This document shows, piece by piece, positions 1,422 to 34,312 of a stretch of 64,000 bases of DNA. A program made the translations under genes and the position numbers. The notes below the pieces were generated by a model that was not told the origin of the DNA, did no database searches, and worked only from the letters and a program-made list of their open reading frames with translations. The DNA comes from Mesodorylaimus sp. YZB2_4 (Eukaryota; Nematoda; Enoplea; Dorylaimida; Dorylaimidae), in contig JASANH010000641.1 of assembly GCA_030248295.1 (NCBI GenBank), positions 1 through 64,000 of the forward strand. The letters are read 5' to 3'. Position 1 is the first letter of the stretch. Every line of letters starts with the position of its first letter.

Positions 1422-1747
1422 ATGAATATGAGCAGTGCCGTATTTTTCATCCTGCTTCTCGCGCCCAAATTTTCTCAATGCGATGGTCGGTTGGCAGCGG
1501 AGAATCCTGAATTTGATTTGACGGTTTCAAAGAGGGGTTTCGTGGTCATTCGCACAGGAGAACGCAATGCGAATAAGCATGGAAAATCGGGAAACGTTCT
1601 GGGTTATCGTGTAAAGTAGGTATCCAGCCACTTTTATGCAATATCCACTATGCACTCATTCCTTACCCTTTCAGATACTTGAATCCATTGGGCATGATGC
1701 CACACGATTATTACCGGACAATCAAAGCAATAAAGTCGAGAAGCTGA
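1422..1747 (+). CDS. Secreted cationic peptide precursor, copy 1 (intact)
   Basis: This is a two-exon gene. Exon 1 is 1422-1615 and exon 2 is 1675-1747, separated by a 59-base GT-AG intron in phase 2. The predicted product has 88 residues: a hydrophobic signal (MNMSSAVFFILLLAP), a spacer AENPEFDLTVS, the dibasic pair KR, and 50 residues beginning GFVVIRTGER. Exon 2 encodes YLNPLGMMPHDYYRT followed by IKAIKSRS and the stop. The mature part has no cysteine and is strongly basic. The ATG at 1422 is preferred to 1374 because every paralogue starts at the equivalent codon, and the earlier codons lie in the 5' leader. A secreted peptide cut after KR is inferred; hormone, antimicrobial or venom roles are all possible, and I do not recognise the family. 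Confidence 0.8.
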
Positions 1748-2450
1748 GGGTAAAGAAAAGTGATAAAGACAAAGGTGAATCTACCGTAAGTGGAAAGATA
1801 TATCAGTTCTTGACGAGAATGGAAAATAGTAGCCGGGTACACTGCAGTGTATCAGCGTCCGAGTAAACACGTTTGCATCTGCTATGACTGAATATTTTGG
1901 AAAGAAGTGTAGTGGATTTGGCGGCAGCCGTGCAGACCCCCTAATCTCCCCTAGCAGCCCTCTTGTTACTCTGCGACTGTCCATAAAAGGTGCCGTTAAC
2001 ATTATGGAGCCTTTTCTCTCGAATTCTGGATAAAACTTCTTAGCTCTTACCATAAAGTCAATCATCCACATTCCGATTCGGGCACCAATGGCTCCATATA
2101 GAGATGCGAAGAGCTTATGAAGTCTTACTCAGAAAAAAAGCTTATGCAGAAATTACTGATAAATTTACATGTATCATACCCAGATATCATTCTGACTTAC
2201 TCAGAAGTTACGCAGAATGAAAATGCTTGCATATATCGCCGGGTTAGGAGGGTCTAAATCTAGTAAAGTACTGCCATAGTGCTGCCGGTTTTCTCTTATC
2301 CACCCGTACCCGCTCCCCTATCTACCTATATCTGCTGTAAACCTAAACCTGTACATCACGGGCTAGCTCTTAGCACCTCTCTCAAAAAACCATCATAATA
2401 CCCTGATCATAATAATCGCAACATAACTGTCTCCTGAGGTACCTAAAACA
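1748..2450. other. 3' flank of copy 1; no gene seen
   Basis: The first part (about 1780-1865) matches the 3' flanks of copies 2, 4 and 6 (a shared AAATATATCAG-type stretch and a GAGCATGGAAAATGG-type stretch) and is probably 3' UTR. The short reading frames here do not match each other between copies. Nothing is recognised in 1870-2450. Confidence 0.4.
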
Positions 2451-3500
2451 GCAAAAATTCATATATTTGATAGATATTCAATGTACAAGGTCGTATACTT
2501 TGGTCTGTTGTATGACGTAAAAAGTCATCTACAGCGCGCTAGTACCGTTGATCCGACAAAAAGGTATGGGAGATTTGCTGGTCGAATCCGAGGACAGTAT
2601 GGGTACGAAGGTTGCCCTGTGGATCAAGGGGGCGGAAAGGGGCAAGGGTACGATTTTTTACCAAGCGGGACCCTGTGAAGGATAATATCTTATCCATAGC
2701 CACTTTTTACAAAGTTCTGTGTGTGGCCATCAAGATTCTCGTGCCACTGTTCAAGCAAAGTTTCTTGCGCGACTGATTCGGCAGCGATGTCTGCGAGTCG
2801 GTACAGTAAACCAGCGCGCTGCTATCGTCCGTTACTTTAGCCATTGTTCAATGATTGACAGTCCTGCCACACCCCTTCCCGTGCTGGGGGCAGATCACAT
2901 ACAGTATGTCTCTTTAGCTCTACAGCAGGACCAAAGAGAATCTAACTGTGAGGTGTTAAGAACTCAGTATCTCTATTGTATCTCTATTGGGTGTGTCATA
3001 AAGAATGATACTCTCTGAAGGGCGCAGTCAAAGTGCCAGCATATGTTCAACTGCATGTCATCCTAATCAGCATCGAATACAGCACATTGGTCTCCGAAAG
3101 GTCTCGCCTGCGGAGTCAAGAAGAAGATAGAGTCTGATAAAGGATCTTCTGTCGAAACATCTTGTCGCTGGTCGCTGCATACAGCAGGCGGGAGCGACGA
3201 AGAGGATGTTGATCATTTGTCGTTGACGAGAATGTTTCAAGGTCTGATCGTGAGCGCAACATCTCGTTTCTAACGTCAAACGTTAATTTTAGCAGGAAAA
3301 TTAGGCCTTTGCTTGTTGTGCGCCTGAAAGCCTATTGTCTGATGAGGTTTTTTTTAAAGACTCTTCAGCCAAGACGATGTCACGCACGAGTCACGGTCAT
3401 GTCAGGCGCTTTGATACTTCCCAAAGGATACTGTACTGCCGCGTTATCGACCATACGCACTGGTTGCTTGCGTATTGACTCATATTTTAGAGCCGAATAG
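2450..3500 (+). repeat. Array flank repeat, copy a
   Basis: Positions 3,060-3,490 match 13,480-13,930 in direct orientation at high identity. Positions 2,560-2,740 match 12,640-12,900 more weakly. A run of GAAGAGGATGTTGA-type codons at about 3,200 recurs at 6,560, 13,660, 21,090 and 33,210, and in reverse near 17,070. Short reading frames here (such as DEEDV) differ in frame and end between copies, so I treat it as non-coding or decayed sequence duplicated with the peptide genes. Confidence 0.6.
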
Positions 3501-4800
3501 ACACCATTACCTCAAAGTTTCACCAAACACCCCTCCGGCAAAACTAGTTTTATAAACTGAACTCTTAAGAACTTCTTCAGAACGAGAACCTCGTGGTAGG
3601 CATGGATTTTAGCTAGTCTCACTGCGATTGTCGTGGAGAGAGTAATGTGGGTATTACTGGCTCATCGACGATGACTGAAAAGCGAACTCGCGCCAGCAGT
3701 ATTGCTTCCAGTTCAGCAGAAAGCGCAAAAGGCACTATTGCTAGTTTTTTGCAAGACAGATTGTCCGATTGCACTAGCCAATCATAGCAATCTACACTTC
3801 GTGTTTTCACTCCAGGGTGCTCTTCCTTGTGATACCCACACCCCCCCTGTCTCTGACTGGGAATACCTCCACGTGTACTAGGTTGCACTAGGTTTGAATC
3901 ATCACTGCCGGTCCTTTCAGTAACGGGCGCTAGTTTCGATAGACCTTAAATAGGTCGACTGGCGGACACCTTCGCAAAGCTAGAACCGATACAAGCGAAG
4001 AGATTGAACAGAGGAAAGGCAGCTGGTGGAAGACCCAACCGCATAAGTCGAAATACTTAGGATTATTGAAGAGCAGGCGCTGTTATAGGTCAGGAGAACC
4101 TAGACGGGCAGCCTACTAGAACCACTCAGAATTAAATCCTCAGTCTCAAGAGAGGCGAGCGGCATGAACAAGTATTCATGTGTGCTAGAGGCTCGTGCCT
4201 GGTGGTATAAAATGCCAGATGGCGAACCCGCATCACGGCATTGAGCCATCTCATTATCACTTTCTTAGTACATACTGTACTGTTTATCCCTTTATCTCCT
4301 AGAGTGAGGTTTCACCATGCTACAAGCAATACAAGTCACAGGTTCGGTTCACAAGTGCAAGCTCACAATTTATAAAAGTGCATTAAGCTACCTGCGATCA
4401 TCAAAATAAGGGGAATCATTGGCAGCTCCTACGGTACAGGACTTATTGCAAGAAGTTGTTCGTATAGCACGATTACGAGCGATCGTTTCATGAACTCACA
4501 AGTTCTCCAAAAAGTTGGCGGAGACTCGAAGTGAGCATTTTCTATGAGTCAAAACGCTTGCAGCGTTGCTCGTTTTCATTCGTTTAGCCATTTTTTCAAC
4601 TGGTTTCTTTCTTATTGGCGCGTACTTCATGGTGACTAGGAGCCAGACCTTCTCTCGAACTAACCAACTCACATTGTGTCTTCTGTCAGAAATTGCCGCC
4701 TTCTACGTTTGGACTCATTTACAAGTTCTGCCTCTTTTTTCCACAAGGCTCTTTCTGCAAGCTTACAAGCTTTTTTCTACAAGGACTAACGTGAAACGAT
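3500..4800. other. No gene or repeat recognised
   Basis: I see no convincing coding region, RNA gene or repeat here. Positions 4,560-4,950 hold a 126-codon open frame rich in phenylalanine and leucine, but it overlaps duplicated flank sequence and is not conserved at 24.1-24.4 kb. Confidence 0.3.
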
Positions 4801-5388
4801 CATCCACCCTTCTTGCGACTTGCTGCTTGTACTGTCCTTGCAACATGTTTCTACTAGAAGGCTCACAAGATCTTTCGTACGTAGGCACGCTTGCACTTCT
4901 ATCTTGTGAGTTTGGTACCTATTTGGCGAAACGCGGGCGCTTGTAAAAATAACTAGTAACTTTAGGTGTCGCTGGCAACATTTGTAAGTGTCTCCGTGAA
5001 ACTGGGCCCTAGTTTGCCTTGTATGCTGAAGATTTTGCTTTCTCTTTTGTGATTTTGTGGCATGGTGAGGTCAAACTTCTTTTCGGGGGTTTTTGCTTTT
5101 TTTCATCCGATATAATAATCACTCATGAGCGGCGCAGTCTCGATCGATAAATCCTACTACTTACCAGGTAGGTCCTGCACACTGTGCAGGGCCTTTTGGC
5201 TCTTGCATAATGGTTTCAACAAAAAAGGCGACATCAACGGTTTGAAATTCTTAAAGTGATTCGACTGCATGATGACCTCTCATGATATCATGTGGGACAT
5301 GATCGAGCAAGAAAATGTTAAGGTTAAATAATGAGCATTGCAAGAAAAGTGACTCAATCAACGATAATACGACTTGATCGCCTTGTAT
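4800..5388 (+). repeat. Array flank repeat shared with 24.2-24.8 kb
   Basis: This stretch matches 24,225-24,800 in direct orientation. Shared landmarks are GGCTCACAAGATC, GCAGTCTCGATCGATAAATC and CTTGCATAA, followed by a decayed version of the peptide upstream region. At 24 kb this segment links copies 5 and 6. Here it is followed only by a promoter remnant, so a peptide gene may have been lost. Confidence 0.6.
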
Positions 5389-5389
5389 A

Positions 5390-5464
5390 ACCTGTTTTCT
5401 TTGACAATATACACGCCCTCCACGTTCCGCATAGTGCCGCGTGTACATTCCCAAAGAAAACAGA
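5390..5464. repeat. Short palindromic element, copy 1
   Basis: The left arm CCTGTTTTCTTTG and right arm CAAAGAAAACAG are inverted, with ACACGC and GCGTGTACATTCC inside. It is about 75 bases long and nearly self-complementary over its length. Two more copies lie at 11977-12049 and 12207-12281. It is probably a miniature fold-back element. Confidence 0.65.
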
Positions 5465-5752
5465 TAGTAGTGTAAACGACAAAAAGCTTAAAATTAAAGC
5501 AAGATCTGTAAATGCGATAATGATTTCTTCGTAACTATACATACATTAAGACGTTATTGCAGGTTAAATGGTCTGATAGGTCTGACCCAAATTAGTCTTT
5601 GATGCCCACCGCCCCCCCACTATCGTCTCATGTTTGGCATTTTGCACGCATTTTCTATGCAGTGCTCTCATTGCGTAATCAAAACATGCCTCCTTCCAGA
5701 GCTATTTTGTAGATTATGCTCGAAGGTTACGGCTATGCGCAAAGAAAAGCGA

Positions 5753-5815
5753 CTTGATCATGTCATCTTGTGTGAACGACAATGCGATTATTCGTTCTCC
5801 CCGTGAAAGACGGTA
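5753..5815 (+). promoter_or_regulatory. Orphan copy of the peptide promoter
   Basis: It has the distal block (CTTGATCATGTCATCTTGTG, then ACGACAATGCGATTA) and GTGAAAGAC, but the GACGTCAC core is broken to GACGGTACAT and no TATA box or peptide exon follows. It looks like the remains of an eighth gene. Confidence 0.6.
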
Positions 5816-5879
5816 CATCACACTGGCGCACTCTGAAATACTGTATCTTACGATTAGAGAATTAGGCCTCACGATTGGA

Positions 5880-6960
5880 GGAGCGGCGACAGGGGACGGG
5901 GGGAGGACATGAGGCTCAGGTATGAGGGTCGCTGTCGTGCATGGGTGCTCAAACCACCCCAAACCCTTCCGTGACGATCATGTTATGGGTAAAGATACAA
6001 AGCTGGCCAGGTGGCACTGCTAGGGCACGATTTTCAAATTCCGTGCACATCAATGAGGATGGGGTTGTTACAAGGTATAATTATCGATTGCCCAAGTTGT
6101 TGAGGATACCATATCTGGTTTTGTGGCACAGCTGCACGCCAATGCAGTAGCAACTACTGTACGCTCTAGCGCAATGAGAACCTGTCAGCGGACAGAGTGA
6201 AGGACTTCGTTTGACGTTGTGCGCACAATACAAGTAATTTTTCGATGTGAAAAATTAGCGTTCAACTTATCTTCAAGTCAATACTTACAATCAGTACCTA
6301 TTGTCAGTTTTTACAAACTCGAGCAAGAGATGCAATAATGTCACATTTGTTTCACGTTTTCCTCGGACTGACAAATGGCATCTTACATCAATGGAGCAAG
6401 GATACAATCTAGCATGTTCTACCTGCAGTACATGGGCTTCATCCTTATCAGCGGCGCGCGCATACATAGCCTTCACTGTACTCTCGAAAGCCCTCATTTG
6501 TGCCGATTCGAGGATGCAACCAGAGACGTACGAAAGAGATGTTGGGACCGTTGAGGAGGATGTTGATTGATGAGGATGGAGAGGATGTTGACGAGTGTGT
6601 TGAAAGGTGAAATCAACATTGCATTTTAGCAGGAAAAGTGGGCCGCCGCATGTTGTGCGTCATGAAAGCTTGCTTTTGTCTAGTGCCTCAGGATATCAGA
6701 AACTACGCTTGAGCCAAGAAAATTTTAAGCACTGCTGCAGAATCACTGTAGCCTTAGGAGCATTGATACTCGCATATCCAAAGGATACCGAAATATGCTC
6801 AGGGTGGAGCCGAACCAGACGTATCCGATCAAAAAGGAGTTCCCACACGGCTATGATTAGCCAAGCAATTGCTCCCTTACATTACTCCGCTATGATCAGC
6901 TTGCTAATAACATCCTCTCGCTAGCACCACTTTCGCTTAACTAATAGCCTAAGCGGGAAT
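5880..6960 (+). repeat. Array flank repeat, copy b (with 20.4-21.3 kb)
   Basis: Shared landmarks with 20,440-21,260 are GCTCAAACCACCCC, CACGTTTTCCTCG, CATGGAGCAAGGA, a GAGGATGTTGA stretch and AAAGTGGGCC. Reading frames shift between the two copies, so the conservation is at DNA level. Confidence 0.55.
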
Positions 6961-7441
6961 TCAGCCTGAGACCTTATATCAGCCTGCAAATTACCATCAG
7001 ACCAACTCGCGCAATCCCACGCTCACCAGACATTGACCAGTTTGTAGGAAGCCTTCCTGTATCGTGAAGACAAACCAATTTGAGAGAGAGATTTACAAGC
7101 AGCCACACTCGACGATAATACACAAGGCAACTTCATCGCAACAGAGCTATAATGCAACATTTTTGGTCCACCCTGGATACAAAAAAGCTTTCAATTATTT
7201 TAAAATTTCGAGTTTAGGTAGGCTGCTTGATAAATCGATCGACGTACGTACGTGATGCCGCGCAGCAGCCCAGCCAGTCGATACAGCCCATGATGATGCC
7301 TCGCACATATTTAGCTCCTTTCAAAAGTTCTACTTTACGCGTTTCGATTTATAAAAAGGGAAATACCTGATCATGATCATAAAGCATGAATCTGGTCATA
7401 ACTGAGGAAATCTCCCCAAAGCGATCTCCCAATAATAAGTA

Positions 7442-9563: not shown

Positions 9564-9565
9564 TA

Positions 9566-10896: not shown

Positions 10897-11842
10897 ATGA
10901 AGATAAGCAGCACCCTTTTTTTTATTCTGCTACTCGCGCCCATATTTTTTCAATCGGTCAACCGCGTTGCGGCGGAGAATCCTAAATTTGATTTGACGGC
11001 TTCAAAAAGGGGTTTCATAGTAATTCGCACAGGAGATCGTCATGCGTACAAGATTGGAAACGGACCAAATGTTCGTGGTTTTCGTATCAAGTAAGTCTCC
11101 AGTCACTTCTTTGCAATATCCACTAGGCACTTATTTCGATTGTGTACCTCCTGGCCGACTGTCTTTGGTGGGCGCCTGTCTCTCTTGACTGGTTGCAAGT
11201 GTTCTAGTAATTCAGGCCTTGTGCCTAATAAGCAGTTGAAGACTCCGCAGAAAACAAATACACATGGGGCGGGTATGTGGTGGGTGAGTAATTAGAATAT
11301 ATTCTAATGACCATTGTTCTCGTCGAAAGGTGGTGTGTCTGTTCGAATTAATTATGAGCTTGGCCACCTCTTAGGACAATGTCTGCAGCGGCGAACACAA
11401 CAGGAATGATTTATCACGGCGTACAGAAATGATCTTGCCAATTAAAGAATGGGTGCACCTGATCAAGACATCAGCCTTATTACCAGTGACTTGGTCCTGA
11501 TCGCAATTAGGCCCTCGCACCACAAATCATGCTGATGGTACCACAGCCACCTTAATCATGTTTTTCAGGAGCTGCACCCAGCTCTCAATATCGCTCAATA
11601 ATGTATCCTTATAGTATTGGTGCTTTTATCGTTAGACGGTAAAGTGAGATGGTCCGCCGGCTTATCAGGTCGCTAACAGGGTGCCGGTATATTCTCAACA
11701 TCACTTATATATAGGACGGCCACCTGAAACAGCCAGGCGAGACAGAGCCCTTATTCCTTCCCCTTTCAGATACTTGAATCCATTGGGTATGATGCCCTTC
11801 GATTATTACCGGACGATCAAAGCAATAAAGTCGAGAAGCTGA
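10897..11842 (+). CDS. Secreted cationic peptide precursor, copy 2 (intact, long intron)
   Basis: Exon 1 is 10897-11090 and exon 2 is 11770-11842. The phase-2 intron is 679 bases, where the other copies have 57-63, so about 620 bases have been inserted into it. Consensus GTAAGT and TTTCAG ends are kept. The 88-residue product has a signal (MKISSTLFFILLLAPIFFQS), the spacer AENPKFDLTAS, KR, and 50 basic residues from GFIVIRTGDR to the C-terminal IKAIKSRS. Exon 2 reads YLNPLGMMPFDYYRT, with F where most copies have H or Y. No frame break is seen. Whether the enlarged intron is still removed efficiently cannot be told from sequence. Confidence 0.78.
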
Positions 11843-11976
11843 AGAGTAATGGAAGGGATAAAATCTGAATGGTATATTACCTTGATGCATGGAAAATGGT
11901 GATTTCAATAAACAGGTGCAGTGCAGTACTGTGCCTATATATGCGTCTTAATAAACTTTCTGAAGCAAATTATTAT

Positions 11977-12049
11977 CTGTTTTCTTTGGGAATGTACACG
12001 CGGACTATTCCTTAACGCGGCAGGCGTGTATCTTCCCGAAGAAAACAGG
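11977..12049. repeat. Short palindromic element, copy 2
   Basis: The arms CTGTTTTCTTTGGGAATGTA and the inverted CGAAGAAAACAG enclose an ACACGC/GCGTGT pair. It is the same family as 5390-5464. Confidence 0.65.
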
Positions 12050-12206
12050 TTATACTGATGTAGAGAAATTCTGCATGGCTTACAGACCCTTAAAATCTTT
12101 CCACCAGCTCCGTTGTTACAGCTCCAATTGCGCGTATATGCACTAACGATAAGACTGCAGTAAAACCTTTCTCGGATCCAATTGCTCCCAAAGTCTACAA
12201 GTATAA

Positions 12207-12281
12207 CCTGTTTTCTTTGAGAATACACACGCCCTCCACGCTACCGCATAGGCCGCGTGTACATTCCCAAAGAAAAAAGAT
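12207..12281. repeat. Short palindromic element, copy 3
   Basis: The left arm is CCTGTTTTCTTTGAGAAT and the inverted right arm is ATTCCCAAAGAAAA. It lies about 160 bases from copy 2 in the 3' flank of peptide copy 2. Confidence 0.65.
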
Positions 12282-12399
12282 AATATTACCTCTTAGCTCT
12301 GTCCAATTGTAGTCAGTCATGGCATTCCAATTAAGGCAAAACATGACGCCAATAATCACAGTTCTAGGGACCTATACAGTAAATCTCATAAATTACTGG

Positions 12400-15299: not shown

Positions 15300-15800
15300 T
15301 AAGGAAGTAGTGGCGTTTGCATCGCCAAAGACTATTCGACTGCTCGCGCCAGCAGTGTTGATCGTCTCGCATCATTTTGTGCGTAATAAAAATAAACCAG
15401 GATCCCCAGGGAAATAAGTCATACGAGAAGTTCGTCCTTGTCTCTTTTGCTTTCACTTTCGGTATTTTGTCTGGACGTTGCTGCTTGGTGAGGCTCAGCT
15501 TCCAAATGACTTCTTTGCTATGCTATGCTACAGTATTTTACGTTATCCAAGCGCGCTGTCATGCGCTACGACGGGGCGTCACAAAAAAGTGGTCTTTCAT
15601 TCCTTCTGTTTTTGTACTGTAGTTGGTCTGATAGATCTGACACAGCTGACTGTCTGAAGACTCAATGTGATATCATATTGAACACGGTCGAGCCCTAGAA
15701 ATACTTCCTATGCGGTATCAAAATATTTGTACCCGCTCCCATATCATACCGTTACTAGATTATGTTTGAAGGTCACAACAATGTGCAAAGAAAGAAAGGT
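15300..15800. other. Upstream flank of peptide copy 3
   Basis: Positions about 15,620-15,790 match the flank before the promoters of copies 1 and 2 (GGTCTGA, TGATATCATATTG, CCATATCATACCGTTACTAGATTATG). No gene is seen before that. Confidence 0.45.
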
Positions 15801-15802
15801 GA

Positions 15803-15945
15803 CTTGATCATGTCATGTTGTCTTCACGACAATGCGATTATCGACAACAAGATGTATTTGTTATCACGGTGAAAGACGTCATTGCCGGTCAAAACACTCC
15901 CAATGAATAATGATCAGGAAGTAGGAAGCGTCTTATATGTACGCT
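15803..15945 (+). promoter_or_regulatory. Conserved promoter of peptide copy 3
   Basis: It has the full set of blocks: CTTGATCATGTCATGTTGTC, AAAGACGTCATTGCCGG, AGGAAGTAGGAAGCG and TCTTATATGTAC. The promoter looks whole although the gene it serves is frameshifted. Confidence 0.7.
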
Positions 15946-16003
15946 AGGGAGTGACATCCACCTTTATTCTGGTCGGTATCGTTGGTCTCATCAGTCTGGC
16001 ATC

Positions 16004-16326
16004 ATGAAGATAAGCAGCGCCCTTCTTTTTATTCTGCTCCTCATGCCCATATTTTCTCAATCGGTCGGTCGCATTGTGGCGGAGAATCCTAAATTTGATT
16101 TGCCGGCTTCAAACGGGGGCTCATAGTTATTCGCACGGGAGAACGTCAAGCGAACAAGATTGGAAACGGACCAAATGTTCGTGGGTTTCGTATCAAGTAG
16201 GTCTCCAGTCACCTTTATGCAATCCTTTATGCACTCATTCCTTGCCCTTTCAGATACCTGAATCCATTAAGCATGATGCCACACGATTATTATCGGACAA
16301 TCAACGCGTTGAAGTCGAGAAGCTGA
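16004..16326 (+). pseudogene. Peptide precursor copy 3, frameshifted
   Basis: Exon 1 is 16004-16196, one base shorter than the 194 bases of copies 1 and 2. The lost base lies at the dibasic site, where AAAAAGGGGTTTC is replaced by AAACGGGGGCTC; the frame reaches a TAG a few codons later and KR is lost. The exon 2 frame (16254-16326, 73 nt) is open, with the change of G to S in YLNPLSMMPH. Signal peptide, donor and acceptor are preserved, so the break is recent or is an assembly error. Exon 2 and the DNA beyond it form one arm of the inverted duplication with 32.6-34.1 kb. Confidence 0.75.
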
Positions 16327-17548
16327 AAGAAGAGGAAAGTGATAAAAAATAGAGGTACTTTTAGTTTTGGTACAAATACATCTTCTCGCGAAGCATAAAA
16401 ATTGTGCAAACAACGTTTTGCATTTTTGCGAGGGAGCTGAGTCCTGAAGTAGTCATTCAGGTGAGCGCAGAGGCGTCCATACAGGTACTTCAGAAAGATT
16501 TGAGTCGGGCCACATGACATTGCACGCTGTACCAGAAGTTATGGAGCCGAACCAGCAGCCGGCTAAAATTAGTATGAACTGTTTCTTGTTATTTTGCATC
16601 CGTTGGATGCATCAATGGCCAAAATCGCCAATTGACGCGTTTTTACGGGTGATTCTATAGGGAGGGGGTGAAGAATATTTTTGACTTTTTGTCACCATAC
16701 ACTCATTGGGCTCTTCTCATCACCATTCTCATGAAAATCAAAATCTAAAATCACTTCTACAGAAAGCCTGTCTAGCTACATCGCCTATTCCATTTCATTT
16801 TACTCTTGCCGAAGCACATAAATGCGCACTCAAAACATCGAGTACAAGGATCACGCCTCGCCTCGCGTCGCCTCACGAAATCAGAGCGGCACTCAGGGAC
16901 TCTTACCGAAATTGGCTCAGGCGCCATTTCTGATACCATGAGGCGCAGGACAAAAGTGGACCTTCACGATGCACAGCAGGCGGCGGCCAACTTTTTTTTG
17001 CTAAAACAAAACTTTGACGAGGAAATCGAGCCTCACGCTTTCACCTTTCAGCATATTCTTCCAAACATCCTCTTCATCCTGATCAAGTCTAACATCCGCT
17101 TCGACGCACCCACCATTGGGCTCTGGCTGCAGCTTAGAATCTGCGCTAGTAGGCCAGCCAAGTTGCTGACTAGGACGACATACAGTTAGGTAGAACATGC
17201 TATACTGTTCCCTTCCCTCCACAAGAATATTTATATGGCATTATGTTAGTGATTGTCAGGCGCAATGTAAGATGTGCCAGGAATCAGGTATGGAATCCAG
17301 CAGAACTTGAGCATCTAATTGTAAAGCCCAACAGTATGAAGAGATTGACCACAAATACGAAGCAGATGAACCATGGTCAAAATATTCTGGCTGGACCTGG
17401 TTATAATAATTTGACTCCTTCGAATGTTGATATCATGGCCAGCCGCGAAAATCTATTGATCGGTGTACTAATGCAGGCTTGCTGCCGATGCAACACCTTC
17501 TAGATGTTTGGTTAGGATGGCAGCAATAAATCCCAACCGCTAGTACTT
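16235..17548. repeat. Inverted duplication, arm A
   Basis: It matches 32,618-34,085 in reverse complement at high identity. Landmarks are CATCCGTTGGATGCATCAAT, GGCTCAGGCGCCATTTCTGA and GGTTAGGATGGCAGCAATAA. The match starts in the peptide intron just before exon 2. Open frames at 16,806-17,222 and 17,243-17,503 are shared with the other arm but show no domain. Confidence 0.8.
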
Positions 17549-17699: not shown

Positions 17700-18040
17700 G
17701 GGGAAACTTGGGAGGTCTGCACAGCTCCTGCAAAATCCACTATTTTCTCTCCAATTTCAAATCCTCTCCAACAGTAAATATATGCTTTACAGAAGATGCA
17801 GACGTATTTATTCGCGATCAGTCGCAGTTATACTGTATCCTGCACATGATTATTGAAAATTTCACTTTCGCTAGTTGTATGCTTCGCAAGCAGATATATT
17901 TTGTGTCATCTAGATTTAGATACCGTTTTCTTTGTCACTTATCTCTCCCCTTAGCTTCTCGACCTCAATGCCCTGACTGTCCGGTAATAATCGTAGGGCA
18001 TCATGCCCAATGGATTCAAGTACCTGGAAGGTTAAAAAAT
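17700..18040 (-). pseudogene. Orphan exon 2 of the peptide family with its 3' flank
   Basis: Positions 18023 to 17951 on the minus strand are a 73-nt exon with acceptor TTCCAG. It encodes YLNPLGMMPYDYYRT, then a basic tail and stop TAA. The 3' flank (down to about 17,750) is the inverse of the 19,140-19,260 flank of copy 4. No exon 1 or promoter is found above 18,040, so this is a truncated inverted copy. Confidence 0.75.
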
Positions 18041-18809: not shown

Positions 18810-19138
18810 ATGAAAATAAGCGGAGTTCTTCTTTTATCTTGCTACCCGTGTCCACATTTTCTCTACGCCATAGTCGCGTTGCGTCGGAGACCCCTGAGCT
18901 TGGTTTGACCGCTTCAAAAAGGGGTTTCGTAGTCATTCGCACGGGAGAACGTCATGGAAACAAGCATGGAACTGGAAGGAGAGTTACAGGTTTTCGTATA
19001 AAAAAGCCCCAGCCTCTTTTTCTGCAATATATGTAAACTATGCTCTTATTCCTTGCCCTTTTTAGATACTCGAATCAGTTTGTCATAATGCCCTACGATT
19101 ACTACCGAACAATCAAAGCAGTGAAGTCGAGAAGCTGA
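18810..19138 (+). pseudogene. Peptide precursor copy 4, broken
   Basis: The start at 18810 (MKISG) shifts frame within the signal region because one base is missing relative to the paralogues. The KR and GFVVIRTGER part lies in the other frame. The splice donor is also lost, with GTAAGT replaced by AAAAGC near 19,003. Exon 2 (19066-19138, 73 nt, acceptor TTTTAG) is open but changed to YSNQFVIMPYDYYRT. An open frame from 18788 (MVPSVRHNENK) covers the basic region but has no signal peptide. Two independent lesions make this a pseudogene. Confidence 0.75.
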
Positions 19139-23707: not shown

Positions 23708-24045
23708 ATGACGATAAATAGCGCCCTTTTTGTCACCCTGCTCCTCGAGTCCATATTTGCTCAATGCCATGGTCGCAAAGCCGTCGAGAATTATGGTGAT
23801 CTGACGACTTCAAAGAGGGGTTCATAGCCGTAGTTATTTTCACAAGCGAACGCCATACGAAGAAGTATGGCAAAGGGGGAATAGCGGTAATTCGGGGTTA
23901 TCATATAAAGTAAGTATCTACCCACTTTCATGCAGCATCAAGTCAGTGCTCCCTTATTCCTTACTCTTTGAGATACCTGAATCCGTTGGGAATGATGCCG
24001 CACGATTACTACCGGGCAATCAAAGCATTGAAGTCGAGAAGCTGA
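23708..24045 (+). pseudogene. Peptide precursor copy 5, frameshifted
   Basis: The start at 23708 gives a signal-like MTINSALFVTLLLE and reaches SKRG, then meets TAG because a T is missing from GGGGTTTC and the next bases are altered. Donor AAAGTAAGT (intron from 23910) and exon 2 (23973-24045, 73 nt, acceptor TTTGAG) remain. Exon 2 still reads YLNPLGMMPHDYYRA and ends LKSRS. The lesion is within a few bases of that in copy 3 but differs in detail. Confidence 0.75.
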
Positions 24046-24935: not shown

Positions 24936-24981
24936 TACTGCACAGCAACATCCACTTTTATTCTGGCATTAGGCAAGCATC

Positions 24982-25299
24982 ATGAAGATGAGCAGTGCTC
25001 TACTTTTTATCCTCCTTCTCGTGCCCATATTTTCTGGTTGCATAGCCGTGGAGAATCCCGTCGAATCTGATTCGACGGCTTCAAAAAGGGGTTTCGTAAT
25101 TATTCTAACTGGAGAACGCCATGTGAATAAGATGGGAAAAGGGGAGAATGTTCAAGGTTTTCGTATAAGGTATGCCTAACCTGCTTTTTCCAATGTTTCC
25201 TATGCCTATATTCCTTGCCCTTCCAGAAATTTGAATCCATTGGGCATGATGCCATACGATTACTACCGGACAATCAACGCATTGAAGTCCAGAAGCTGA
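24982..25299 (+). CDS. Secreted cationic peptide precursor, copy 6 (intact)
   Basis: Exon 1 is 24982-25169 and exon 2 is 25227-25299, with a 57-base phase-2 intron (donor GGTATGCC, acceptor TTCCAG). The product has 86 residues: the signal MKMSSALLFILLLVPIF, a spacer with PVESDSTAS, KR, then 50 residues from GFVIILTGER. Exon 2 encodes NLNPLGMMPYDYYRT followed by INALKSRS. Compared with copies 1 and 2 the spacer is two residues shorter, but the part after KR is exactly the same length. AATAAA near 25,331 could serve as the polyadenylation signal. It has the clearest TATA box of the set and is a good candidate for an expressed member. Confidence 0.8.
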
Positions 25300-26412
25300 G
25301 AGAAGAGAAAAGTGATCTAAATCTATCTAAATAAAGAAATATATCAGCTTGACGAGCATGGAAAATGGTAATTTCAGTATAGTACATTTGCGTCCACTGT
25401 ATCTGGAAAATTATTGGTGGGTTCATCAGAAGGGGAGCAGGCCCAACCCCTCTAAAATTGATTTTGCACTTTCTCAATAATTTGACTTTTCTAAGATCAA
25501 TCACTCACAGTCCAATTCAGACGCTGTTATACAGTGCTGTAAATGATCGCTGGTTGATAATTCCTATCACCTTATCGGGTATTCATATCAGGTATCCACT
25601 CGAGGGCTAAGGAACACACGAATCGAAAATAATTTTACCCCCCGGCGGGCGTCAAACCCTCCCCTGTAAATGCGCAGCCAGCGTGTAGGCACATAGGTAT
25701 ATACAGTATGCGGAATCCCAACGCCTCAATGTCGGGATCGGGATCAGAAAGGGTCGAATCCCGACGGGATCAGGATCCTGACCTATCCCTATATTTAAAC
25801 GGTCACCTCGCAAGCAGTCCTGCCTCTGGCATGGGGTGTCTTCCGACTTTGCAAATGCTTCTTTTGTAAAGGCAAATGTTCCTGAGTGTGCAAGCTCGCT
25901 CAGACGGCCATGCGTGAGCTACAATTAGCTCCCATATTTGACCTACTGCAGCGCTCCTCCACCATCAATGCTACTCTCGGCTGCCTGTACTAACTAGGTT
26001 GGCTCGTCAACGGTGTCGAAGCCAGATTTTAACCTGCCAAGGGCATTTTAGCAAATTAACGAGGACGTTGCTAAGAGAGAGGAAGATAGTCTTGTGTCCC
26101 TTCACCCTCGAGTGCGCAAGTGCTTGGTGATGTGGTAAAACAGTAACAGTAACAGAAATAAATTAATATAAATATACTCGGAAATACTAACTAGCCCTCA
26201 ATCGCCGTTCGACAAAGTTCTGCAGGCATCTCACCGTCAGTCCGATTCAAGAGCTAACAATTCTAGTACACTACAGTATAAGTGCAGTATATAAAAGACA
26301 GGATACTGTGATTCTACGTTTACCATCCACTGTTTCGTTCAATAAACTTCAGACGAATAGGCTTTCTTGATTTTAAACCCGTAGTTGTGAATTCCACATC
26401 GAGTGGCACAGA
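25300..26412. other. Intergenic with SINE and MITE relics
   Basis: Positions 25,590-25,700 hold a minus-strand copy of the Leu/Ser-like SINE (tail CCTCGAGTG, CCAGCGTG). Positions 25,735-25,800 carry GATCGGGATCAG words, as in the 8.3 kb and 47.4 kb elements. TATAAAAG at 26,289-26,296 on + has no plus-strand gene after it. Confidence 0.45.
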
Positions 26413-29400
26413 CTAAAGTTGGAAAGATTTAGATAAGCGAAGTCTTGCCCCGTCGTTAACAAATTTAGTCAAAGATACACTAGTCGTATTAGAATGGCTT
26501 ACAGGGGTGCATTCAACTGGCTCGATCCGGAATTTTTTAATGACATTGCCCAATATCATTCGTAAATTGAATTGCGCGAATCGCATGCCAATGCAATTTC
26601 GAGGGCCATATCCAAATGGCAAATAGGTCAATGGATCGACAGTTTCAGAATTTAAGAACCTAATGATTGCAACAAATCTTAACATCAGTCTGAAAGTTTC
26701 CTACCGTGAGTAACAAGTAAGTCAGTGACTTATCTTTCAATTTAACAGGATCAAAGGTAATTTACTGTACCTCACCTTTCAGGGTTGAACTTTTCGGGCT
26801 CTGGGTAAATCTCAGGATCGTGATGAATAGCGTATACAGGCACTATGACGCCTGCTCCTTTCGGGATGACTAGCTGATCAGTCAGCTGATAATCTTGTTG
26901 ACATTCACGATCCAGGCGTACTCCTGGTGGATACAGGCGCAATGTTTCCATGATGACTGCCTCCAAATATGGAGCATGATGGTGGACATGATCGTATGTG
27001 ACTGGCTGAAAACAAATGCAAAGAAATCGACATTCGATTCTACAATACAAAAAATTATCAGACTTCGTTGTTTGGTGCCAAACCAATGATTTCTTGAAAT
27101 AATTTTTCTAGCGTTTCAGGATGCAAAGCCAAAAGACAGGAAGCGAATGACAAAGTGTTCGATGTTGTTTCGTGGGCAGCAATAAGGAATAGGAACGATT
27201 GAGCCACAACGTCGAGGTCAGTCATGGACCAAGGTTTAGGCGGGCGGATTCCATAATCGATACTTGGATCAGAGTCAATCAGCTGGTCATTCCGATCAAC
27301 TGCATTGATGAGCAGTTGAAGAAAGTCCAGCGAGCCTGTCTAAAAAGGGGGGTGTCATGAGCACCTCACAGAGACGAACTGGGCTGGATTCCCAATGAGG
27401 GAGCCAAGTTGCCAAGCTGGTGTAGCCCTCGCGTGCTTGCGCGCCTGCTTACAAGCAGGAATGATAATTAGAGAAACCATAAAAGCGTGGTATTTTTTCC
27501 TGGCTGTCTCATTTTTCTTCTCCAAACTAGCCGGAGTTCGAAGAGTTGAGTGATCAGATATCTGTACCTTGGCCGAGCGCTACTTCCCAATTTAATTCTG
27601 CGGCGCCCCCACAGAAATTTTTTCTAGATCTCTATCAAGTCCGGCAAGTAACGTTAAGTCTACAATTACAAAATGAATCCCTTCCCAATAGTGTTCAGGG
27701 AAAGTATACACCTACTTTTGGATGACGACGCCTTTCGTGCACAATCTTTACCAAGTTTCCAACATAGAATTGTTCAGCAGCGTCGGTTGAAAGAATGTTA
27801 ATCCCCAAATATTCTTCTATTTTTCCTGAGATCCAGGGAAAAAGTACTGAAAAGCCAAATTGCATATTTTAGCCACTTTACAGCGATATACTAACTGCTT
27901 ATCCAATCTTCCCAATCAGATCAGTTTTAATAGAGTTTGAAAATCAAACTATCAAAATCTTCAGCCCCAACCATGTGGACAGTTAGGATTTTATATGCAG
28001 TGAACGGTTTTGCTACCAAAAGCTTCAAAGGCGACACAAATATTCTATAAAAGTCAGCAAGCTGCCACCAAGCCTAATGTTAGGTTCATACCGTTAACTT
28101 TGACAGAGTTTTGCGTTTTGACAAGGGAGCTTAGTCCTGAATAAGGCCAACCTCCTACGCATATTCAAAGACCTGCTGAAACCGACTTCTTGCATTGCAG
28201 AATTTTACTTGTAGAATTACTGTATTCTGCTGTATGCTGCCGTTTTGAAGGATACCTACTTGAAATCACCATGCGCCAGTCAGTCCATTTAAATTCGATT
28301 AACGATTTAGAAAACTTGTTGAATTCGTTCTCAGGATTCTGCTGGGCGTCGATATCCAGGGCAAATGCTGCTGCAGCAATGATTTCTAGGGTCAAGTTCG
28401 TGAATGCACTATAATTAGAAATACTGCTTGCTTTCTTCCCCAACAGTGAATTCGAGCCAAAAAACGCAATAGAAATTCGCATGTGCATTCATCTGACACG
28501 GACGAGTACCCTTTTAAGGTTTCTAAGCAAGCCTGCGCAGGTATCAGCCGCATAGCCACTCTGTGCTGCTCCGCAAGAAGCACCTACACACGACGGCATC
28601 CTGGACGACAGCGACTTCCCCGGGCAATGGCGGGTGGGGTGTGAGCCCTGTGGTGCCTTGCTCAAGTACTGGGACCTAGTTTACCACCCATGAGATAATG
28701 ATAAGTATGCTAGACCCTTCATGGCTATCACGAATGCAGGGTACTATGCACAATTGAATTTATGGAAGTTATGCATTAGTCCTCCGTGGAAAGGTAAGAG
28801 CTGCAGCCAAGAGACCCCAGGCCATTTGACACATGCGTGCACAAAATCACCACACCTCTTACTTTTTAGTGTCAATGCCATCAGCAGAGTGGCCCTGCTC
28901 CATCAAAATAGCGCAAAATGTCTTAATACTTTTATCCACCAAATGCGCAGTGTTTTTCAATTTTCCGCTCGTAAATGCCGGCGTGATGGCACTTCGAGCA
29001 TTTTTCCATTCGTCATCTCTAAGAACGATTAAGAATTTTCGAAAAATCGAATTGTCACTGCCGACGTTGAGGAAATCCTTTAGAGTAAAAAAGTTTAGGG
29101 TCATATGGTACCTTTATAACATTTTATTCATACCCTTCGATTTGTAAAATTATAAAAATCTTTTACGAGAACCCGCTTTATCAGCTCTCTGTCCGACACA
29201 ATCACTTCGGGCATTGTTAGCATATAGGCTCCAAAGATGGGGCCGTATTTTTTACTCCATTCCAAATCGCAGTTGTGCATGCCCTGAAATAAGAGAAAAG
29301 CATTGGGTGGTAGTTTTTGCGCTCATTCCTTCTCACAGGTTATGTGTGGGCTTTCCAGTATGATCAAAGTGATGCCAGACAGAAATACTGTTGGAATAAT

Positions 29401-29736
29401 ATAGCCCTGATTTCTTGTGAAGCACGATTGCCCTACCTTTCTTCCATAATCGATCATGTTTCCTAACAGAGGCCAGGCAGGTGGTGATGGCAAACCAAGT
29501 CGCTGCCATAATGTTGCTTTTTTATACCAAAGACTGCAAAATGAGAAAGAAATGTATAGAATGAGTCGCATGTTGGTTTTTACCAGAATGCTAGAATACA
29601 GTGTTGCTTACAATAGCTGAATACTAGCGCCAACCAAAACGATCAGAATACTAGAGTACGTGCCAAAGAATTTCGTAATAATATAAATCAGAAATATTCC
29701 AGAAAGAAATTTTTCACCGACTCCTGCTCTGGGCAT
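26413..29736 (-). CDS. Cytochrome P450, clan 3 type (CYP3/CYP6-like), nine exons
   Basis: Exons on the minus strand are 29736-29612, 29533-29437, 29283-29134, 29077-28863, 28408-28260, 27846-27716, 27339-27064, 27005-26776 and 26659-26413. All join in frame with GT-AG ends and total 540 codons (539 aa), a normal P450 length. An N-terminal membrane anchor (GIFLIYIITKFF, ILIVLVGASIQ) is followed by LPSPPAWPLLGNM, helix C WKNAR, I-helix AAHETTS, K-helix ETLR, FNPER, and the heme-binding FGYGPRNCIG with its cysteine. The product is expected to be an ER monooxygenase for xenobiotics or endogenous lipids; the substrate cannot be told. The donor after LAPNNE (GTCTGA) is weak. No disabling change is seen. 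The gene sits alone between duplicated peptide units. Confidence 0.9.
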
Positions 29737-30736
29737 TTTTGCCTGAAGCAGGGTGTTACTAAAGTTCAATAGTTCTCAAGGGTGAGGAGCGCCAAGCAAC
29801 GAAGATACGAGTGCGACTGGCATCAAGCCAACTCTTCCTCGTGGCAGGCTAGTCTATCCTTAGGAATAGAACATGAAACCACGGGGGGGGGGGGGGCGTA
29901 TATTTTGCGCATGTGAGCTGTGGAAGGTACAGAGAAGAAATTTCAGTTCACAGCAGGTATGACTTTTGCCGTTCTGGCGCCACTCATTTTGGCTGTTTTA
30001 GCGATATAAGATTTTGGCGCCTTGATTAGAAAGCGTGGGTGGATTTTTAATCGGCGCAAAACCGTGTCCCTCGCTCTTCTTCAAAATCAGCCATGTCGTG
30101 ACAGACGCAGCAATATCAAGTGTAAATGCTGCCAGCTTTGTATTTAGTCACTAAAGCCTTATCGTTTTTCAACCATGCTTGTAATCAATTTTTTACAAAG
30201 TGATTGCGCATATATTCTCTACGTTTATTCTTGGAATCATTCCCATCTTTGTAAAACTAGGAAAGTCTTCAAACTGTAGAGTAAGACATGATTTTCAAAT
30301 GCGGCAGTTACCTGAACAGTACATTACAAATTAGAGACAGGGGAATAGAGGGATAGTAAAGAGCTTCAGAAGGCAATTCGTTGATATGGAAGACAAGATT
30401 AAAATCAATCATACAGGCACTGCAAATTGCACATGAATCTGCAAAAACTGCGTCACATCTATTTCCGGTCTTTCAAACCTTCCTCGAAGAAGTAAATTGA
30501 TGGATCGATAGCTCAATTCAAAATTTGGATAGCACGAAGTTTGATATTGTATCTGAGAGTTTGATATTGGATTCCACATCGTCCATGGCGTGTTTTAAAT
30601 CCACTAAGGCTCAAAATAATAATTGCACTAGCATCTGGTCAGGTAGAGAGCAGCAGTAACGGCTGGCGCCAAAGCACTCAGCGCTAGGGTGATTAACGCC
30701 AAAATAGCGCAGCCGAATAGAATTATTTCCAAGAAA
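29737..30736. other. Intergenic, upstream of the P450 gene
   Basis: A G run lies at about 29,884-29,896. No recognisable gene or promoter element is seen. Confidence 0.35.
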
Positions 30737-31441
30737 GTCTGTTATGACAGACGTAACATTTTTAGACCAGCCAATGCACAGAGTGGATAACCAGGGCTTA
30801 GGATGGCTGGTCTACTCGGCCACTGCAAATCGCAACAAAGGCTGATTAGGAAACGTGCTCAAGCTGCTTTCTCTGCATGAATATAGGCACCACTACTGAT
30901 CGTAAGCAACGAGCAGTGTCATTGAAAGATCCAGTTCGTGGTCTCCATAGTGGGCTCGAAGTGTCTGCCTCTCGGGTTGAATGCGCACTACTAGCGAGTG
31001 TTCAACCCCCGGCTACGCAAATCATTTTGTGTAGTGTGCTCCCCTATCCTCAAGTGTGCCATTCCTGATGTAGTGAAACATGACCATAAACATACAGTTG
31101 GAAAGGGGGAAGACTGTTGCGAGTGTTACTCAAGGCTTGGGATCTGCCGATAAGCTGTACCACGTACTCGCAGCGCTAGAGCTTTAGCATATTCAGGTTG
31201 CCATCGTGTGAAGCAGCTGGTATCCTTTGGGGAGCCTGTCCAAACAGCAGCAGCACACAGACTATGTGGCTTTGGTGCTGACATCGACAAGCATCTGTGT
31301 GTTAGTGATTACACACTGTGTGCGTTGAGCAGCATGAGAGGACCTTGTCATCGTGCGGCCGAATAGACCAGCCATCCTAAGCCCTGGTTATCCATTGTGT
31401 GCATCGGCTGGTCTAAAAGTTTTGAGTCTGTCACAACAGAC
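30737..31441. mobile_element. Non-autonomous TIR element, about 705 bp
   Basis: The ends are long inverted repeats of about 90 bases: GTCTGTTATGACAGAC followed by TTAGACCAGCC and CCAGGGCTTAGGATGGCTGG on the left, and their inverse on the right. Both tips are themselves small palindromes. The interior has a tRNA-like stretch (GTGTCTGCCTCTCGGGTTGAA). No open frame of use is present and no target duplication could be assigned. Confidence 0.75.
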
Positions 31442-32617
31442 TTTTTTGGAACTAATAAGACCGTTTTTCGTCTTTGTTACAAACTAGTTTCGACCAAAAC
31501 ACTGCGTGCCCATGTCAGGGCTTAAGAATAAAGGGCGTGGAGAGGGGAAATTTTTCGCACGATTTTTGGTGGCAGCTTTGTGTTCTCTATTCCTAAGCAC
31601 CTAAAGGGTTGGTCCAATTTATGGACTTTTTTTAGTGCGGTTTCACAAAGTTTGTGTGTCCAGGTGGAATATGTATACCGCATGTAAAAAGTACGGACTG
31701 TTCTTCTTGCAACTTTGTGATCGTTCCAGTCAAGTGCATGATTTAAAGCAAGCATGTACTGCGGTGTCATACGTTGGATAGGCCTATTGGAGGTAAAATT
31801 GCGTCCAGGGTTGGCTATGGAGTCGATCAAAACCAGCCCACATAGCTGTGGCAAACAAACCTCGACTCGACTCGACTCAAAACAAACCTACTTTGCTGTT
31901 GGAAGCTATGCAAATAAGCTCTCATGAAAGTCCTGTTTTAGCATGGCTCTAGCAGTGTAAAGTGAAAATGGCAAAAATCAATGCATGCGTATATTCGATA
32001 GCATACAGTGTCTGTACAGTATCTGTGTAAGCTCTGTCTGAAGTTGTATTGTAAGATTCTGCGTGGCAGATTCCGCAGCAGTGACAGTTTCTAATACTCG
32101 TAAAAATTGTGCATTGGTTCAATCATGCTTACTAGCAGCAGACCATATTTGGTTTGTGTATGAAGTCGGCCGTGAAGTAGTCCATGAACAAAAGTCGGGC
32201 GAAGAAAAAACTGACCAAGGCGAGCTTACGAGTTAAATTTCAAGAAAAACGCAAACTCGTTCACTTCACGCAGGCAACACTTGATTATCGATATCGGGGC
32301 AGACAATGGCCGGTTTTGGATGCGCCGGGGCGCAGCAAAAAAGGGCGCATCAGTAATTTGAGCGCATAGACAAAAGGTCGCGAAAATGCAAAAGAGTGTA
32401 ATAAAGGAACAAGGGTTCTGAGGCGAAACTGCGGACACTGTAGCATGTGCAGATATTTAGTCTGGCACTGTTACACTCTCCCTGATCAGGCTGTAAGCAG
32501 TTACTGAACCTGCTTACCGAAAATACAGCTCACTTTGCACTGTTTTCCATGCTGATCAAGACAGTATCTTCCTCTGCGTTCTTATACCTTTGTCTTAATC
32601 ACTTTTCCTTCCCTTCA
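31442..32617. other. Intergenic; one unassigned minus-strand frame
   Basis: A 110-codon minus frame at 31,522-31,854 begins near CGLVLIDSIANPG and has protein-like composition. GLVLID recalls alpha/beta-hydrolases, but no nucleophile or histidine motif is present and no other exon joins it. Positions 32,060-32,140 match 34,785-34,870 (AGATTCTGCGT, GTTTCTAATACTCGTAAAAA), a short dispersed repeat. Confidence 0.3.
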
Positions 32618-34085
32618 GTACTAGCGGTTGGGATTTATTGCTGCCATCCTAACCAAACATTTAGAAGGTGTTGCATCGGCAGCAAGCCTGCATTTAAGTA
32701 CACCGATCAATGGATTTTCGCGACTGGCCATGATATCAACATTGGAAGGAGTCAAAATATTATAGCCAGGTTCAGCCAGAATGTTTTGACCATCGTTTCT
32801 CTGCTTCGTATTCGCGGTCCATCTCTTCATTCTGTTGGGCTTTATGATTGGATGCTCAAGTTCTGCTGGATTCCATACCTAATTCCAGGCACATCTACAA
32901 GCCATTGTTGATGTGTTCAGTCACGCAAAAATTGTAAGCTTCCCCACCTACCTCTGATTCACCCTTTTTTCCTCGGTCACCTGTCTGAACCTTTTCTGTT
33001 GCCTAGTAAAATTACGAGATCGAGCGGTTGCGCCTGACAATCACTAACATAATGCCATATAAGTATTCTTGTGGAGGGGGGGGCACAACATAGCTTGTTC
33101 CACCTAACTATATGTCATCCTAGTCAGCAACTTGGCTGGCCTACTAGCGCAGATTCTAAGCTGCAGCCAGAGCCCAATGGTGGGTGCGTCGAAGCGGATG
33201 TTAGACTTGATCAGGATGAAGAGGATGTTTGGGCGAATATGCTAAAAGGTGGAAGCGTGAGGTTCGATTTCCTCGTCAAAGTTTTGTTTTAGCAAAAAAA
33301 GTTGGCCGCCGCCTGCTGTGCATCGTGAAGGTCAACTTTTGTCCTGCGCCTCAGGGTATCAGAAATGGCGCCTGAGCCAATTTCGGTAAGAGTCCCTGAG
33401 TGCCGCTCTGATTTCGTGAGGCGACGCGAGGCGAGGCGTGATCCTTGTACTTGATGTTTTGAGTGCGCATTTATGTGCTTCGGCATGGAATAGGCATGGA
33501 ATGAAATGGAATAGGCGATGTAGCTAGACAGGCTTTCTGTAGAAGTGATTTTAGATTTTGATTTTCATGAGAATGGTGCTGAGAAGAACCCCATGAGTGT
33601 ATGGTGACAAAAAGTCAAAAATATTCTTCACCCCCTCCCTATGTAATCACCCGTAAAAACGCGCTAATTCGCGATTTCGGCCATTGATGCATCCAACGGA
33701 TGCAAAATAACAAGAAACAGTTCATACTAATTTTAGCCCGCAGCTGTTTCGGCTCCACAAATTCTGGTACAGCGTGCAATGTCAGGTGGCCCGACTCAAA
33801 TCTTTCTGAAGTACCTGTATGGACGCCTCTGCGCTCACCTGAATGACCGGTGGGCCTTCGACTACTTCAGGACTCAGCTCCCTCGCAAAAATGCAAAACG
33901 TTGTTTGCACAATTTTTATGCTTCGCGAGAAGATGTATTTGTTTAATTAAAACTAAGGGTACCTCTGTTTTTTTTATCACTTCCCTCTTCTTTCAGCTTC
34001 TCGACTTCAACGCGTTGATTGTCCGATAATAATCGTGTGGCATCATGCCTAATGGATTCAAGTATCTGAAAGGGCAAGGAATGAG
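32618..34085. repeat. Inverted duplication, arm B
   Basis: It is the reverse complement of 16,235-17,548 and contains exon 2 of peptide copy 7. Exon 2 differs from that of copy 3 at only two or so positions, whereas the first exons of the two genes are far apart in sequence. Confidence 0.8.
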
Positions 34086-34312
34086 TTCATAGCTAATTTT
34101 TTTAAAATGTGGCTGGCTGCTTACTTTATACGCAGCCCACGAACGTTCAGTTCACTCTTATGATTGTTTTCTCGACGTTCTCCTGTACCAAATAGTACGA
34201 AACCCTTTTTTGAAGCTGTCAAATCAGAGTTGTCCACGACCATGCGACCATCGCAGGGAGAAAGAGTGCGCAAGATTAGCAGGATGAAAAGAAGGGAGCT
34301 GCCTATCTTCAT
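33993..34312 (-). CDS. Secreted cationic peptide precursor, copy 7 (open, KK site)
   Basis: Exon 1 is 34312-34125 and exon 2 is 34065-33993, with a 59-base phase-2 intron. The product has 86 residues: the signal MKIGSSLLFILLILRTLS, a spacer DNSDLTAS, then KK in place of KR, then 50 residues from GFVLFGTGER. The middle is more acidic than in the others (RRENNHKSELN). Exon 2 reads YLNPLGMMPHDYYRT and ends INALKSRS. KK is a poorer proprotein convertase site than KR, so processing may differ. It is the only complete copy on the minus strand and the most divergent first exon. Confidence 0.75.

Follow-up and report, generated by a model that had tools for sequence, protein, structure and literature searches.

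The first 64,000 bases of contig C276 of a genome assembly that is most likely from a soil nematode (145 Mb in 1067 contigs), which we refer to as the window, contain a cluster of small two-exon genes that encode predicted secreted peptides. The cluster belongs to a larger family, which is real and is kept by selection, and the strongest purifying selection is on exon 2. This exon encodes a C-terminal block of ~23 residues, and all 16 gene models with an open reading frame contain the block as YL[NS]PL[GFY]MMPxDYYRTxKxIKS or a near form of it. Across the 15 exon-2 forms that we aligned, D11 and R14 are invariant. Copies within the window are named A to H, and other copies are named by their contig.

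Selection and the core of the family

The initial annotation of the window took a 50-residue peptide, preceded by a dibasic site, as the unit of this family. However, the K[RK] site that defines this peptide is found in just 9/16 models, whereas the exon-2 block is found in 16/16. These nine models all belong to one group, and the site is followed by 50 residues (51 in C228b). The site reads SKR in seven of them, SKK in copy G, and LKR in C228b. A tenth model, C227, has a dibasic site (QKR) at a different position. None of the 10 models with such a site has a cysteine after it. The 50-mer is therefore a feature of one group, and the core of the family is the block encoded by exon 2.

To quantify selection, we estimated the ratio of nonsynonymous to synonymous substitution (dN/dS) by the Nei-Gojobori method. 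We summed over pairs of the nine open copies of the window group, all of which were found by homology, and bootstrapped the alignment columns. dN/dS was 0.34 for the whole precursor and 0.15 for exon 2 (bootstrap range 0.06–0.31). The other regions had higher values than exon 2: 0.34 for the signal peptide, 0.52 for the spacer (0.20–1.21), and 0.43 for the N-terminal part of the mature peptide (0.19–0.65). No region average was above 1, including the mature peptide, with the bootstrap range of the spacer reaching 1.21. These values indicate that the copies are protein-coding and under selection, and that the mature tail is not fast-evolving on average. The family had been likened to fast-evolving effectors, and these averages speak against that description, with two caveats. 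First, averages of dN/dS can hide single selected sites. Second, the closest pair of copies, A and C194, has the highest pairwise value (0.75 over the whole precursor), so a recent relaxation or change of selection in the window group is possible. The accompanying idea, a multi-copy expansion with decay, is borne out, as the family is multi-copy and some copies are partly decayed.

Copies in the window and across the genome

The window was described as containing seven two-exon copies and one orphan exon 2 within 33 kb, and we found all eight places (Table 1). DNA homologous to exon 1, with the ATG and the leader, precedes exon 2 in 7/8 places; only copy H lacks it. Copies A, B, E, and G have an unbroken frame between ATG and stop, in line with the four open copies counted in the initial annotation, and their GT..AG introns are in phase 2 and are 59, 679, 57, and 59 nt long. 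In copies C, D, and F, the frame is broken in exon 1. A dibasic SK[RK] motif is readable in six of the seven exon 1s; in the other (copy C), the dibasic site is where the frame breaks. In the four open copies, this motif (SKR in A, B, and E; SKK in G) is followed by exactly 50 residues, with no cysteine and with 8–10 K+R versus 2–4 D+E. So, the proposed layout of signal peptide, spacer, dibasic site, and basic cysteine-free 50-mer holds for these four copies (with secretion by prediction), except that the site in G is KK instead of KR.

The likeness within the array is not due to chance: a genome search with copy A as the query matched exon 1 of B, E, F, and G with E values of 2.2e-20 to 2.7e-11, and copies A and C match at the DNA level with E = 1.7e-102. 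Because the window begins at base 1 of the contig, the array may extend further to the left. To the right, there was no match to another family copy in C276:64000-113500 or elsewhere on C276.

Table 1. Family exons and associated elements in the window. For exon 2, the position of the first full codon is also given.
Feature	Position	Strand	First full codon	Remark
GACGTCA word, copy A (CRE/ATF-like; CRE, cyclic AMP response element)	1293..1299	+		129 nt before ATG
TATA-like box, copy A	1354..1361	+		68 nt before ATG
Copy A exon 1	1422..1615	+		Open; signal peptide, spacer, SKR, start of mature peptide
Copy A exon 2	1675..1747	+	1676	Conserved tail YLNPLGMMPHDYYRTIKAIKSRS, stop
Copy B exon 1	10897..11090	+		Open
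Insertion in copy B intron	11136..11746	+		611 nt
Copy B exon 2	11770..11842	+	11771	Open
Copy C exon 1	16004..16196	+		Frame break at dibasic site; end placed by homology
Copy C exon 2	16254..16326	+	16255	LNPLSMMP
Copy H exon 2	17951..18023	-	18022	Orphan, without exon 1
Copy F exon 1	18810..18996	+		Frame break in leader, no donor GT; end placed by homology
Copy F exon 2	19066..19138	+	19067	Decayed (YSNQFVIMPYDYYRT)
Copy D exon 1	23708..23909	+		Frame break after dibasic site; end placed by homology
Copy D exon 2	23973..24045	+	23974	
Copy E exon 1	24982..25169	+		Open
Copy E exon 2	25227..25299	+	25228	Open
Copy G exon 1	34125..34312	-		Open; KK instead of KR
Copy G exon 2	33993..34065	-	34064	Open

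The similarity between copies is not limited to the exons. Copy A shares DNA with C, D, and G from about -260 relative to the ATG to +345 or more, and with B around its insertion. The shared DNA begins at -217 for copy F and at -5 for copy E, and the promoter of E still aligns further upstream. The copies therefore spread as DNA that carried the intron and the promoter. The long intron of copy B is explained by its insertion, which has no second copy in the window or in the stretches of the family contigs (L039–L058). The GACGTCA word lies 119–139 nt before the ATG in 7/8 of the aligned copies from C276 and C194 (A, C, D, E, F, G, and C194). It is missing from B and from C228b–d, which leaves 7/11 of the aligned promoters with the word.

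Three other observations concern repeated DNA around the copies. Copies C and G are 86–92% alike at the DNA level until ~1.5 kb downstream of the ATG, well past the gene unit, in inverted orientation (15747-17547 and 34579-32617). A 62-nt segment at 5738-5799 is 71% like the distal promoter segment of the family, and no family exon was matched next to it. Also, there is an inverted-repeat element at 11971-12285 (arms of 86 nt, 85% alike) with an extra arm at 5.4 kb (5385-5469); parts of the element recur on contigs C73, C194, and C32.

The initial annotation treated the family as a single 33-kb array, and this proved too narrow: the copies in the window form just one cluster of a family that we found on 11 contigs. 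There are 27 exon-2 places, and all 27 were recovered by each of two genome searches (26 by the search with copy A); these counts are lower bounds. C276 has eight of them, C69 has five, C228 has four, C134 and C359 have two each, and C194, C227, C86, C32, C71, and C553 have one each. We obtained open two-exon models for 16/27 places: A, B, E, G, C194, all four on C228, C227, C86, one on C134, C71, and three on C69. Each of these has a GT..AG intron in phase 2, and the precursors are 75–96 residues long. Exon 1 was found by homology for 10/16 models. For the other six (C227, C86, C71, and C69x–z), we obtained exon 1 by filtering for hydrophobic leaders with a phase-2 donor. Among these six, C86 resembles C134 and C69x–z resemble each other, whereas C227 and C71 are isolated, with no homologous exon 1. 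A tree of the 16 models separates the window group, C228, C194, and C227 from C69, C86, C134, and C71 (support 82/93, midpoint root), although none of the 13 inner branches reaches the strict mark and C71 is a long branch.

The other 11 places lack an open model. Five of them (copies C, D, F, and H, plus C359 at 21.2 kb) show plain damage or have no exon 1; in C359 at 21.2 kb, the first full codon of exon 2 is an in-frame stop. The remaining six are two on C69 (at 56 and 72 kb), C32, C134 at 268.6 kb, one on C359 (at 18.9 kb), and C553. A search over 4 kb found no exon 1 resembling the family that belonged to any of these six, and theirs may be more distant. At C32, C134 (268.6 kb), C359, and C553, the filter did return upstream frames, which were unlike the family and were set aside by eye. 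Beside C134 at 268.6 kb, a matched piece with two stops may be a remnant of exon 1. A duplicated block of ~7 kb is present twice on C69 (L039 and L040), and ~4 kb of it is on C32 (L045), with 95–98% identity; each block contains an exon-2 copy with DYSRT.

Could the family be non-functional repeats, spread in a duplicated or mobile element, whose open frames are mere remnants? The dispersal of the copies, the 11/27 places without an open model, and the near-identical blocks on C69 and C32 would fit this explanation. We consider it very improbable, as dN/dS is well below 1, and the position of the intron, its phase, and its splice sites are kept among the copies that were found by homology. Furthermore, no inverted pair flanks a copy among the repeats of at least 60 nt in positions 1000-26500 of the window.

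The probable host nematode and other genes in the window

To identify the source organism, we used the mitochondrial gene COX1, which is on contig C73 (L059, C73:253280-254750, translated with code 5). Among the matches listed, the nearest named records are Xiphinema rivesi (80%), Longidorus vineacola (79%), Paralongidorus litoralis (78%), and X. pachtaicum (75%); unnamed records reach 83%, and insects are next at 61–63%. Because the nearest named records are from the Longidoridae, we place the host most probably among the dorylaimid nematodes; this placement uses one mitochondrial gene that lies on a 488-kb contig and is possibly a nuclear copy. A tardigrade host, which genome size, GC content, and the chitinase had at first suggested, was rejected on the evidence of COX1. 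Searches with COX1 in phages and plasmids were of no use, yielding no match and 5 weak records, respectively. We also considered the ascidian and flatworm mitochondrial codes and rejected them, as AGR reads S and AAA reads K at sites of COX1 that we take to be conserved. Besides L059, there are 14 further matches to COX1-like pieces. They are on many contigs and several have TAA or TAG stops, which suggests that the genome contains many nuclear copies of mitochondrial DNA. A repeat of 30–41 nt near COX1 on C73 recurs at three places in the window and in L053 and L045, from two other family contigs, and not in a shuffled control. This shared repeat ties the COX1 contig, the window, and the family contigs to one genome.

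The diet of the host may differ from that of the longidorids. The cellulase GH12 is described from X. index, X. americanum, and L. elongatus, and as a single open frame in X. americanum (PMC5664137). A six-frame search of the genome for GH12 gave 0 matches, with the caveat that the assembly may be incomplete. Because of this, we think that a plant-parasitic longidorid is a less likely source than a relative with another diet. The repeat TTAGGG had no exact match, which is not informative.

Beyond the peptide genes, the window contains a chitinase-like gene at 60220-63100, with several exons by eye; the frame at 59858-60478 matches Glyco_hydro_18 (E = 3.3e-6, just below the curated cut-off). 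An 831-residue frame at 37224-39719 has weak matches to ResIII and AAA_30 (E = 0.006–0.007, below the curated cut-offs) and is perhaps of the helicase type. A frame at 49272-49697 is like Claudin_2 (E = 0.005, below the curated cut-off), and there is a tRNA gene at 41562-41633 (61.7 bits).

Relatives and candidate functions

The initial annotation could not place the peptide in a known family, and our searches agree. In Pfam, copy A matched 0 families at E = 10, and 10 aligned members gave just two matches (E = 0.1 and 0.18), neither of them to a family of antimicrobial peptides (AMPs), which we take as chance. Thus neither copy A nor the 10 aligned members matched a cecropin signature or a Pfam AMP family. 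NCBIfam gave matches for single members only, with E values of 0.07–0.17, also taken as chance. The PDB had no match for copy A or for a profile of the 10 aligned members. A profile of exon 2 did match GloB and CG3568 in the PDB (E = 0.22 and 0.55), and tblastn gave a match to a plasmid (E = 6); we disregarded all of these as chance. Among 5.8 billion proteins, including nr and UniRef, a first search found no candidate, and a second search found 503 candidates, none of which matched at E = 10 or better. Pattern matches to viral contigs (29) and to GTDB contigs (1) were not confirmed. Also, words from the motif (NPLGMMP, MMPHDYYRT, and six more) had no match in the open-licence literature in PMC, and other searches of paper listings turned up nothing about the family. 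Lineage-specific families of secreted peptides are of a known kind, and within the searches made, this appears to be a new family of that kind. The protein search relies on shared 5-residue words and on predicted proteins, and gene prediction can readily overlook small two-exon genes, which makes absence from other genomes weak evidence.

Secretion is predicted from the leaders. In 16/16 models, the mean hydropathy over 10 residues is at least 2.76 (a partly circular result in the case of the six models from the filter), and just 10/261 ATG frames of at least 40 amino acids in the window reach this value, family frames included. Two consecutive basic residues stand at the exon junction in 5/16 models (C69x, C69y, C69z, C228b, and C228d), and such pairs are the better evidence for a putative cut there.

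We see about an even chance that this is a lineage-specific family of secreted peptides that lack cysteine, are probably cleaved, and have a tail that binds a single specific partner. The signal peptide would direct the precursor into the secretory pathway. In the window group, the basic 50-mer would be freed by a convertase acting after K[RK], and a possible second cut at the K/R just before YLxPL would free a 23-mer. Outside the cell, the tail would bind a receptor, an enzyme, or another single target, instead of disrupting membranes in general. The clusters grew by DNA-level duplication of units with their intron and promoter, with decay of some copies. That an exact motif is under selection suggests a specific partner, and we consider this part of the proposal, binding of such a partner by the tail, to be somewhat probable. 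If so, an outward effector (in microbial defence or in the secretion of the pharyngeal gland) and an internal signal have about the same odds. The number of copies and their decay agree better with outward effectors than with neuropeptides, the focused constraint agrees with a ligand, and we rate the two as near equal.

Several points weigh against this proposal. Secretion, cleavage, expression, and binding are inferred from the DNA, which itself shows the gene anatomy, the phase-2 intron, the copy number, the purifying selection centred on exon 2, and the shared promoter segment. No homologue in another species was found in the databases searched. The pairs that enter dN/dS are not independent, and many of the 27 places have no open model or are visibly broken. 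Dozens of copies would be unusual for a neuropeptide gene. Although K or R is found at the exon junction in 16/16 models, this is weak evidence for cleavage, because the consensus for phase-2 splicing (AA/A, AG/G) partly forces K or R there. The test of tail amphipathicity described below is narrow as well.

An unlikely but serious alternative, which overlaps in part with specific binding, is that the peptides are linear AMPs that act on microbial membranes, in clusters that are turned over by duplication and decay. Nematode cecropins and the nlp and cnc peptides of C. elegans are examples of such AMPs. The 50-mer is basic and free of cysteine, and the family is clustered and multi-copy with dead copies. 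Furthermore, one survey finds the poorest set of AMPs with known motifs in the nematodes of clade 2/I (3.44 genes per genome) and allows for undiscovered groups (PMC10506718), which makes an unrecognised family plausible there. The clade 2/I genera named in the part of that survey that we draw on are Trichinella, Trichuris, and Romanomermis, with no dorylaimid (PMC10506718). On the other hand, what is most strongly constrained is an exact motif that includes D, Y, R, and P, and not charge alone, and no Pfam AMP family was matched. Also, in none of the 16 models does the helical moment of the tail exceed that of its shuffled versions at the 5% level (10–41% of 2000 shuffles reach it), in a test of one 15-residue stretch that assumes a helix. 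This ordinary moment speaks against a simple lytic helix, which would be less probable given these sequences. Like the linear AMPs of nematodes (cecropins and glycine-rich peptides), the family is short, predicted to be secreted, and free of cysteine. Unlike them, it has no sequence match and is not glycine-rich (6/50 residues in the mature part of copy A, the only copy counted). The helical moment of its tail, as noted, does not stand out from that of shuffles. In the same part of the survey, cecropins are reported only from the Ascaridoidea (PMC10506718).

Returning to specific binding, the partner might be a cell-surface receptor of the worm itself, with the 23-residue tail as a peptide hormone or neuropeptide. 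This also overlaps with our proposal, and in this narrower form we find it doubtful. Purifying selection centred on a short C-terminal block, the predicted signal peptide, the dibasic sites ([SL]K[RK] in 9/9 of the window group), and the GACGTCA word in the promoters all count in its favour. Of these, the short constrained peptide, the signal peptide, and the dibasic sites are shared with neuropeptide-like proteins (NLPs) and FMRFamide-like peptides (FLPs). However, each precursor has a single copy of the block, we recognised no known FLP or NLP motif, and 27 places with 11 lacking an open model are unlike most neuropeptide genes. In 15/16 models there is no C-terminal glycine as a signal for amidation (C69y ends in G), although some NLPs are not amidated.

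It seems improbable that the family is an effector which the worm injects from its pharyngeal gland into plant cells, for instance to imitate a plant peptide hormone. The nearest named COX1 records are from plant-parasitic Longidoridae (75–80% to four, among the matches listed), and mimics of CLE, CEP, or PSY are likewise small, secreted, and multigene. In contrast, we saw no CLE, CEP, or similar motif by eye, and GH12 had no match in the host, whose assembly may be incomplete. The family also shares with venom-type families its multiple copies and its order of signal peptide, propeptide, and mature peptide. In typical venom families, the signal peptide is more conserved than the mature peptide. 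Here the opposite is seen, with the mature tail the most conserved part and the signal peptide less so. Also, the 10 models with a dibasic site have no cysteine beyond it.

Dorylaimids are nematodes that are common in soil. A selected and expanded family whose motif is exact, and for which our searches found no relative, offers a direct way into what they secrete. No other part of it is as conserved as the mature tail, which makes a search for the receptor or target realistic. Clade 2/I, which as represented by parasites has the smallest set of AMPs with known motifs in the part of the survey that we draw on (PMC10506718), is the branch to which dorylaimids belong. We tentatively suggest, as a possibility that we would not yet favour, that these genes represent a new class of linear secreted peptides of dorylaimids, in which a 23-residue tail encoded by its own exon would act as a specific ligand or a target-binding effector. 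The class may then be part of a repertoire for defence or signalling that surveys of known motifs have missed.

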